A stretch of 36,999 nt of DNA, taken from NCBI GenBank assembly GCA_944324685.1, contig CALUXG010000030.1, positions 73,073 to 110,071 of the forward strand, read 5' to 3'. The position numbers and the translations under genes were made by a program. The first letter of the stretch is position 1. Each line of letters begins with the position of its first letter. Positions 29,593 through 35,751 of the stretch are shown in pieces. This DNA comes from an uncultured Elusimicrobiales bacterium (GTDB lineage: Bacteria > Elusimicrobiota > Elusimicrobia > Elusimicrobiales > Elusimicrobiaceae). The notes beneath the pieces were generated by a model. The model did not search any database and was not told the origin of the DNA. It saw nothing but the letters and a program-made list of their open reading frames with translations.

Positions 29593-29666
29593 TGTCACCG
29601 GGTGGGCTCGAACCACCGACCTAGCGCTTATGAAACGCTCGCTCTAACCAGCTGAGCTACGGTGAC
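29593..29666 (-). tRNA. tRNA with CAT anticodon, probably elongator tRNA-Met
   Basis: A complete cloverleaf: acceptor GTCACCG/CGGTGAC, D arm GCTC...GAGC, anticodon stem AGCGT/GCGCT with loop TTCATAA, T arm GGTGG-TTCGAGC-CCACC, discriminator A. The CCA end is not encoded. A CAT anticodon can also belong to tRNA-Ile2 (modified to lysidine) or initiator tRNA; the A-U-closed D region and lack of three G-C pairs in the anticodon stem argue against the initiator. Confidence 0.95.
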
Positions 29667-33320: not shown

Positions 33321-33457
33321 CGTCCGCGCGCTGTTTTTATCACGTGCGCCGCGCGACGTAAAATTATCTCATTCCCAGCCATTCGTCCGCCAACAAGCCC
33401 AAGCCCAACATCCACAATACGCACAAAATACAGGTTAAAGCATTCATAAAACTAACA

Positions 33458-33545
33458 GAGTTAGCAAAGCTTATCCTGAGTTTGCAGCATATTCTCCACG
33501 TAAACGCCGAGTTTTTCTTTGCCTAGGGTTTGGCTTTGCTAACTC
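33458..33545. repeat. 13-bp inverted repeat enclosing a 62-base loop
   Basis: GAGTTAGCAAAGC (33458-33470) and GCTTTGCTAACTC (33533-33545) are perfectly complementary. On the minus strand the second-arm sequence can instead form CTAAC-TCT-GTTAG followed by TTTT (33447-33463), a terminator that excludes the long stem. This has the look of a switchable leader or of a small mobile repeat. Confidence 0.6.
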
Positions 33546-33563: not shown

Positions 33564-33690
33564 TAGAATAAGACCGCATAGATCAGGCAAGAAATATGCG
33601 GTCGGGACGGGGAAGAACAACGTAGCACGAAGCTGTGATACCGGACCAGAAGACGGTCCTTCTCCACCAACGCCATGACGGCGTTTTTCC
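33564..33690 (+). ncRNA. Candidate structured RNA 1 upstream of the regulator gene
   Basis: Extended -10 TGC-TAGAAT (33561-33569) would start an RNA near 33573. It begins with a perfect nine-bp stem (GACCGCATA/TATGCGGTC), continues with GGGGAAG pairing CTTCTCC around the hairpin GGACC/GGTCC, and ends with AACGCC-ATGAC-GGCGTT plus T5 (33669-33688). On the minus strand a strong promoter at 33728-33757 also points into this region and the nine-bp stem followed by TTATTCT could be its terminator, so the strand is not settled. No match to 4.5S, 5S or 6S RNA hallmarks was seen. Confidence 0.45.
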
Positions 33691-33727
33691 GTCCGAAGAT
33701 GCAGGAAAGAACTGCTTAAGTAATGTT

Positions 33728-33757
33728 AGTATAGTAAGTTTTGTTAGCATTTGTCAA
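33728..33757 (-). promoter_or_regulatory. Strong minus-strand promoter next to the regulator gene
   Basis: TTGACA (33752-33757), 18 bases, TATACT (33728-33733) on the minus strand. Direct repeats TGTTAG at 33724-33729 and 33742-33747 (plus strand) lie across it and may be sites for the regulator at 33812. Confidence 0.65.
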
Positions 33758-33811: not shown

Positions 33812-34510
33812 ATGAATAAATTTGAAAAACAGTTGGAAAAATGGAATAAAGGAATACTTAGAGGCGCACAAGCGAAGTTAGCAAAAACGCTGGGCGTCTC
33901 TACAGCCACTACTGCTTTATGGACTACGGGAAAACGTTCTCCCTCCAAAGGATACGTGGAACAAATGGCTAAATTATTTGACATGGATGCGTTGGACGTA
34001 TATAAACTGTTTGACAGACGCTCCGTCATTTATCCCGACCCGCCAAACGTTTCATCTGCACGCATGCTGCATGACCGACACAGCAATGAGTTTGGATACA
34101 ATATGCAGCCCCATAGTATAAACGAGGAAAAAACAGAACCGAGCAACAGCGTACAATTACCCTTTCTAAATGAGGTTCCAAGCAATGTGGAAGAACATAA
34201 CGAAAACGATATTTTGGAATGGTGGAGCGTGCCAAGACGCTTTGCACAAGGCAGCAAATGTATTTTGAGGGCCAGTCAAATCGGTTTACAGCACGTAAGC
34301 AGCGACGATCTGTGCTTTATAAAACCCTTTACACGTGAACAAGAAAATGAATGGGTCGTATTCCGTACGCCAACAGGCCAACATGTGTGCCGGCAAATAC
34401 GCCTGCACAAAGGACAAACCCTCTATTGTCAGCCGGAAAGCCAAAATGGCCAAAAACAAAAACCGGGCCGGCCCATAGGAGTAGTTATTAAATTGATACG
34501 CCAGCTATAA
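33812..34510 (+). CDS. Phage-repressor-type regulator: HTH plus S24-like domain
   Basis: A 232-residue DNA-binding protein. Residues about 17-45 are an XRE-like helix-turn-helix (GAQAKLAKTLGVSTATTALWTTGKRSPS). After a polar linker, residues about 140-232 resemble the LexA/CI C-terminal domain (DDLCFIKPF, EWVVFRTPTGQHVCRQIRL, GVVIKLIRQL). The usual catalytic pair (Ser in G-S-M, Lys before R-L) is not intact: RASQIG with Ser155 keeps a Ser but Arg194 stands where Lys is expected, so self-cleavage is doubtful. The start at 33812 gives a clean N-terminus; the open frame upstream crosses RNA 1. It lies between two RNA candidates and may regulate them. Confidence 0.8.
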   Translation: MNKFEKQLEKWNKGILRGAQAKLAKTLGVSTATTALWTTGKRSPSKGYVEQMAKLFDMDALDVYKLFDRRSVIYPDPPNVSSARMLHDRHSNEFGYNMQPHSINEEKTEPSNSVQLPFLNEVPSNVEEHNENDILEWWSVPRRFAQGSKCILRASQIGLQHVSSDDLCFIKPFTREQENEWVVFRTPTGQHVCRQIRLHKGQTLYCQPESQNGQKQKPGRPIGVVIKLIRQL

Positions 34511-34514
34511 CCCC

Positions 34515-34542
34515 TTGTTTTTTACAAAAAAAACCTTATACT
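34515..34542 (+). promoter_or_regulatory. Promoter of structured RNA 2
   Basis: TTGTTT (34515-34520), 16 bases, TATACT (34537-34542). The predicted start is about 34549, directly before the first hairpin of the RNA. Confidence 0.6.
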
Positions 34543-34548
34543 TATAGT

Positions 34549-34953
34549 ATCCTCGGACAGAGTCCGAGATATGCGGGACAGAAAATGTGCGTCCCGCGCC
34601 AGCTTTGCCCGGTGATGCAAGGCGGCAAAAGACGCATAAACTGGTCGGGCCGCGCCGGTCAGATACCGTGAAGAGCGGTGAAACGTAAGTACGCGGCTTT
34701 GAAGCAGAAAAGAAATGTTCCTTGACTGTTGCAAAGTTAGATGTTATCGGCAGCCTGTAGGCGGTGCGCACGCTGCGGCCGCACTCTGGGGACAGAGGGC
34801 ATATGGACCGCGGAACGGACCGAAGGTTGCGGAGCTTTGCCGGAGCATGTTACTGCCCCGTGATCTGGCGGGCTGACATCTGAGGAAGGAAAAAACATGA
34901 AAGACTGCAGCTAGGGTCCTCCGTATTTATGGAATACGGGGGACTCTTTTTTT
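34549..34953 (+). ncRNA. Large structured RNA of about 405 nt, unidentified
   Basis: No reading frame of note lies here, but the strand is full of compensating stems: CTCGGAC/GTCCGAG (34552-34568), GCGGGAC/GTCCCGC (34573-34597), a possible pseudoknot (CCAG 34599 with CTGG 34641, and GCCCG 34607 with CGGGC 34646), ACCG/CGGT around 34665-34679 inside a CCGCG/CGCGG stem, GTGCG/CGCAC near 34764-34784, and a GGGG/CCCC pairing 34788-34859. It ends in a strong terminator. Length is like RNase P or tmRNA, but RNase P's GAGGAAAGTCC and tmRNA's TTCGA T-loop and tag frame are missing. A mini-frame MKDCS with GGAAGGA before it lies at 34897-34914. Confidence 0.65.
34916..34953 (+). terminator. Terminator of structured RNA 2
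   Basis: A 12-bp stem with one G-T pair (34916-34927 with 34933-34944) is followed by TCTTTTTTT. Confidence 0.92.
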
Positions 34954-34997
34954 GTCCTTTGTATCATTTGGCGAGATAAAATAGCTACCTGAAAAAA

Positions 34998-35026
34998 TTG
35001 AGTATTTAAGTAAATTTTGATATAAT
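34998..35026 (+). promoter_or_regulatory. Promoter of yggS-yggU
   Basis: TTGAGT (34998-35003), 17 bases, TATAAT (35021-35026). The leader is about 8 bases but still has AAGG five bases before the ATG. Confidence 0.75.
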
Positions 35027-35040
35027 ATGTCAAGGTTTTT

Positions 35041-35751
35041 ATGAACGCGGCAGACAGAATAGAGCGAAATGTACAACGGGTGGAAAACGCCATTTGCGCG
35101 GCATGCCGACGCAGCGGGCGCAACCCTCAGAACGTAACGCTCATGGCGGTAACAAAATACGCCACAGATGAAGACGTGTGGGCTTTGTTGTCATCAGGAC
35201 GTATACGCCATATTGGGGAAAGCCGCGTACAACAAGCCGCCGCCCGCTGGACGTCTGCTCGTTTTGCATCCTGTCAAACCATCAAGCATTTTATCGGGCA
35301 TTTGCAAAAAAACAAAGCCGCGCAAGCCGCCGAACTGTTTGATTTTATTGATTCCATAGACGATATTCGGACCGCTTGTTCTTTGAACGATCATGCTCTG
35401 CGTTTACAAAAAACGCTGCATGTATTGGTGCAGATTAAATTAACACACAAAGAAAGTCAGTCCGGCGTGTCTTTGGAAGAAGCACCCGTATTAGTGCGGC
35501 AACTGCAGAATTTGCAAAACCTTCGCCCATGCGGTTATATGGCCATTGCGCCGCAAACGGACGACCCACAGACGCTGCGCCCGTTGTTTAGGCAAGTAAA
35601 GAACGCTTTTGACAGAGATTTTCCGCCCGCTCTGCCGCAAAGATATTTGTCTTTGGGTATGAGCGCCGATTTTGAAACGGCAGTGGAGGAGGGGTCCACA
35701 TTGCCGAGAGTAGGAAGCAAATTGTTCGCCACAGATTCGGAGGAGTTATGA
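35041..35751 (+). CDS. yggS: PLP homeostasis protein, YggS/PROSC family
   Basis: A 236-residue PLP-binding protein with the alanine-racemase-like barrel but no known catalytic reaction; it balances free PLP and amino-acid pools. Lys39 in LMAVTKY binds PLP. Other family motifs are IGESRVQQA, HFIGHLQKNKA, GYMAIAP and SLGMSADFETAVEEGST.PRVGSKLF. The length is normal. yggU overlaps the stop by four bases, as in many bacteria where both are kept together. Confidence 0.96.
   Translation: MNAADRIERNVQRVENAICAACRRSGRNPQNVTLMAVTKYATDEDVWALLSSGRIRHIGESRVQQAAARWTSARFASCQTIKHFIGHLQKNKAAQAAELFDFIDSIDDIRTACSLNDHALRLQKTLHVLVQIKLTHKESQSGVSLEEAPVLVRQLQNLQNLRPCGYMAIAPQTDDPQTLRPLFRQVKNAFDRDFPPALPQRYLSLGMSADFETAVEEGSTLPRVGSKLFATDSEEL

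Follow-up and report, generated by a model that had tools for sequence, protein, structure and literature searches.

A conserved structured RNA of about 400 nt that ends in a five-to-six-codon minigene in one genus of gut Elusimicrobiaceae

Results

A structured RNA gene next to a phage-type repressor gene

We found that nearly all members of one genus of gut Elusimicrobiaceae (Ca. Avelusimicrobium-type) carry a previously undescribed RNA gene of about 400 nt, here called RNA-A, that folds into an elaborate structure, ends in a minigene of five or six codons, and matches no known RNA family. Homologues were found in 62 of 66 genomes of the genus, and a model of the 3' domain matched none of 275 genomes from other genera of Elusimicrobiota. 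That this is a conserved, structured RNA gene is close to certain. In contrast, its function is a matter of inference.

RNA-A was found in a 36,999-nt stretch of DNA (the window) from an uncultured Elusimicrobiales bacterium (assembly GCA_944324685.1, contig CALUXG010000030.1, positions 73,073 to 110,071 of the forward strand). It lies between a gene for a CI/LexA-like repressor and yggS (Table 1). A first-pass annotation, made from the sequence alone, had proposed an unidentified structured RNA with its own promoter and a 12-bp terminator, a possible pseudoknot, and a mini-frame encoding MKDCS, and had suggested either a new large RNA class or a very diverged known one. Our results support the first of these readings, although not the pseudoknot.

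Table 1. Features of the RNA-A locus and its surroundings (positions in the window)
Feature	Position	Strand	Details
Promoter of RNA-A	34515-34542	+	TTGTTT (34515-34520), 16-nt spacer, TATACT (34537-34542); start of transcription expected near 34549
RNA-A, whole transcript unit	34549-34953	+	
Closing helix, 5' strand	34564-34581	+	Pairs with 34853-34869; ends in the invariant ACAG; 16 pairs, 7 with changes on both sides
5' domain, modelled as R1	34577-34711	+	Hairpin arms between the conserved ACAGAAAA (34578-34585) and GCAGAAAA (34704-34711), both invariant in group 1
Closing helix, 3' strand	34853-34869	+	
Shine-Dalgarno-like sequence	34886-34890	+	AAGGA, in the unpaired tail
Mini-ORF	34897-34914	+	AUG AAA GAC UGC AGC UAG (MKDCS)
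Intrinsic terminator	34913-34953	+	16-pair stem and T tract (also given as 34913-34947), beginning at the stop codon
CI/LexA-like repressor gene	33812-34510	+	HTH_3 N-terminus
yggS	35041-35751		
Promoter of yggS	34998-35026		TTGAGT-17-TATAAT, conserved in group 1
tRNA	29593-29666		
RNA-B	33566-33721	-	Closing hairpin at 33572-33603
Promoter of RNA-B	33757-33728	-	TTGACA-18-TATACT
Small hydrophobic protein	33364-33447	-	MNALTCILCVLWMLGLGLLADEWLGMR; downstream of RNA-B
Operator-like repeats	33461-33470, 33533-33542, 33726-33735		TTAGCAAAGC/TTAGTATAGT; around RNA-B

RNA-A has its own promoter and terminator. The promoter was read directly from the sequence and is conserved in relatives as TTGATT or TTGACA, a 16-nt spacer, and TATACT. 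A generic promoter scan did not list it, because TTGTTT falls below the threshold of that scan. The terminator is stronger than the 12 bp of the first-pass annotation. We found no longer conserved protein frame; the longest open reading frame varied from 43 to 110 residues among representatives of the family.

RNA-A does not match known RNA families

We compared the window to 4227 Rfam families. At gathering score there was no match in the whole window except for a tRNA, and there was no match up to E = 10 in the region from 34400 to 35100. The RNase P RNA (RF00010, 207.7 bits) and the tmRNA (RF00023, 129.9 bits) of this genome are on other contigs. That is, RNA-A is not a diverged version of either one.

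Other housekeeping RNAs are unlikely. There was no hit to 6S RNA (RF00013) in the genome, and RNA-A is about 400 nt and multi-branched, different in size and shape from 6S RNA. We noticed no helix-8 motif of SRP RNA in RNA-A, and it did not match RF00169 or RF01854. This absence is weak evidence, as neither model had a hit anywhere in this genome. More generally, we found no SRP RNA with RF00169 in 61 Elusimicrobiales genomes (this genome and 60 relatives) or with RF01854 in 21, and it is possible that SRP RNA is strongly diverged in this order. However, relatives outside the genus also had no SRP RNA hit and lack RNA-A, so RNA-A does not explain that gap.

RNA-A is nearly universal in, and confined to, one genus

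BLASTN identified matches in 11 of 61 genomes, including that of the window. A covariance model of the 5' domain (R1) reached 35 genomes of the same genus over two searches, with full-length hits in relatives, and these included a second, strongly diverged group. A model of the 3' domain (R2), built from the diverged groups, reached 45. (Groups of homologues are numbered below.) Together the two models identified RNA-A in 61 of 66 genomes of the genus, and one more (G027) was added by reading the sequence. Of the remaining four genomes, G003 is cut by a contig end, G022 and G035 (both incomplete) had neither the repressor nor the RNA, and G064 had the repressor, followed directly by yggS, without the RNA, indicating that the RNA is not strictly essential. 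Record titles name the organisms as gut Elusimicrobiaceae, including Candidatus Avelusimicrobium. There were no hits in viral, phage, or plasmid collections.

Covariation supports the fold of RNA-A

The predicted fold of RNA-A (MFE -167.8 kcal/mol) is far more stable than that of shuffled sequences (z = -4.9; 0 of 100 shuffles were as low). Nine representatives of the family, including that of the window, had z = -1.7 to -5.4. We tested for covariation on 14 homologues from group 1. In a model with 87 pairs, 89.4% of cells were paired and 52 pairs had changed on both sides, compared to 26.5 in shuffles (0 of 500 were as high). When partners were slid by 1-3 columns, this dropped to 16-23 pairs and about 37-47% paired. 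The structure was derived from the same alignment, which favours it over the slid versions, but the compensatory counts also beat the shuffles. In groups 2 and 3, 13 of 20 pairs in the 3' domain had changes on both sides. The ends of the domain pair with each other and close a multi-helix domain. In contrast, the one candidate for a pseudoknot (CCCGGU with GUCGGG) could often form but showed no covariation, and so is not supported.

A minigene of fixed length abuts the terminator

The mini-frame proved to be the most conserved hint of function. In every homologue whose tail was read, except that in one genome (G030) that has the RNA without a recognisable minigene, the tail contains AUG, four or five further sense codons, and a stop codon, directly followed by the terminator stem. 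There were 42 distinct sequences encoding 35 peptides, 19 with five codons and 23 with six, and UGA, UAG, and UAA were all used. Every sense codon varied. That is, the peptide changes but the length is always 5 or 6 residues. Between groups 1 and 2 (AUG AAA GAG UCG ACC UAG compared to AUG GAA GAG UCG ACU AGA UGA), a change in length keeps an in-frame stop at the stem. Shuffling each sequence gave a chance of about 0.055 that a lone stop falls exactly there. These values cannot simply be multiplied because the sequences are related, and only frames of 4-8 codons were considered. The Shine-Dalgarno-like sequence is AAGGA in group 1 but is weaker (GAGAG/GUGAG or AAGG) in other groups. In the window, the tail is unpaired in the predicted fold. 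We infer that the minigene is likely translated.

Genes flanking RNA-A

The repressor (HTH_3, E = 2.4e-5 in a relative) is present in 63 of 66 genomes of the genus and is directly upstream of RNA-A wherever both were seen. Repressors from group 4 keep the GDSM and Lys positions and the PAG site typical of self-cleaving CI/LexA-type repressors. Those from groups 1-3 seem to have lost these residues while keeping a nearly invariant DNA-binding domain, indicative of a possible domesticated phage repressor. In one genome (G084), RNA-A is present without the repressor. We also looked at 18 loci with related phage-like repressors in the same and other genera and saw no RNA of this kind. The gene downstream from RNA-A changes between groups and is often convergent, which argues for action in trans.

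A second conserved structured element, RNA-B, lies in front of the repressor gene on the opposite strand. The minus-strand reading folds better (-39.7 compared to -18.9 kcal/mol) and has 43 G-U against 3 A-C cells, whereas the plus strand has 5 against 13. RNA-B had no Rfam match above gathering score. In many relatives it is followed by a gene for a hydrophobic protein of about 27-32 residues.

Discussion

Our results indicate that RNA-A is a structured RNA gene with its own promoter and terminator, a covarying fold, and no fixed downstream gene, consistent with a large structured RNA that acts in trans. We infer, from sequence comparison and without expression, ribosome-profiling, or genetic data, that ribosomes initiate on its single-stranded tail. 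The terminator stem starts 16-21 nt after the A of the AUG. This is probably about the reach of an initiating ribosome, so initiation would need no unfolding but elongation would meet a strong stem at once. RNA-A might thus hold or cycle a ribosome beside its structured domain, perhaps functioning in translation tuning, peptidyl-tRNA release, or RNA protection, and its production may be linked to the adjacent repressor. We consider this the best explanation overall, but about as likely as not; that RNA-A works by engaging ribosomes is an inference and somewhat less likely than not. A stronger version, in which the act of translation rather than the peptide is the working step, is not excluded but remains doubtful. 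A large RNA that is nearly universal in a genus, evolves fast in sequence, and keeps both its fold and a minigene of fixed length regardless of what is encoded points to an unknown RNA function tied to translation, and gives a testable case of selection on the act of translating rather than on the product.

It is also possible, although unlikely, that RNA-A is the mRNA of a very short peptide gene, with the structured part functioning as a regulatory 5' leader (a sensor) and the peptide as the product, for example a signal or a precursor. The conserved start, stop, and length of the frame are consistent with this. Several of the peptides end in Asn, as the 7-residue microcin C precursor probably does, but the last residue is not fixed (K/N/T/S/R/Q), and we set that possibility aside. 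The peptide sequence is not conserved, no conserved modifying or export gene follows, and a 350-nt leader for a 15-nt frame would be unusual.

Alternatively, and with similarly little support, RNA-A could be the regulatory RNA of a domesticated phage-type immunity locus, in which the repressor, operators, and two flanking RNAs form a switch and RNA-A acts on the repressor or its targets, as small RNAs do in some phage immunity regions. The position and type of the repressor, RNA-B, and the operator-like repeats are consistent with this notion. The repeats are conserved in position across relatives and are possible binding sites of the repressor. However, the motif TTAGYAWAGT is not enriched in the window as a whole, and claims about operators rest on conserved position only. 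In addition, RNA-A and the repressor can each occur without the other (G084 and G064), related phage-like repressors have no such RNA behind them in the loci examined, and there was no match in phage or viral collections.

It is very unlikely that RNA-A is a cis-acting leader or attenuator of yggS, with translation of the mini-frame blocking the terminator: the stop codon touches the terminator stem and yggS follows in group 1, but there yggS has its own conserved promoter, and in other groups the downstream gene differs. It is equally unlikely that RNA-A is a very diverged housekeeping RNA, even though it is single copy and nearly universal in the genus, given the absence of an Rfam match and the comparisons above.

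Large orphan bacterial RNAs are already known, and RNA-A adds a new one to this small set. We consider it a new kind because no known RNA family matches and because we know of no other RNA that joins a closed structured domain, a minigene of fixed length, and a terminator. The raiA-motif RNA (ModT of Clostridioides difficile; PMC11706538) is also an independently transcribed, structured, conserved bacterial RNA, and is reported to be abundant and to act in trans. However, ModT spans more than 2,500 species of Bacillota and Actinomycetota, and no terminal minigene is described in the abstract of that report. The OLE, ROOL, and GOLLD RNAs (PMC12286853) are large, ornate, and mostly orphan RNAs whose covariation supports an elaborate fold; RNA-A is smaller, has a repressor neighbour, and ends in a conserved frame. 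Like RNA-A, tmRNA is about 350-400 nt, has paired ends, and contains a very short reading frame, but the frame in RNA-A starts with AUG behind a ribosome site and we saw no tRNA-like part. Minigenes such as bar of phage lambda (discussed in PMC8012679) also consist of AUG followed by very few codons and a stop, and can cause peptidyl-tRNA drop-off. In contrast, RNA-A attaches the minigene to a large conserved structured domain and a terminator, and the length is held at 5-6 codons.
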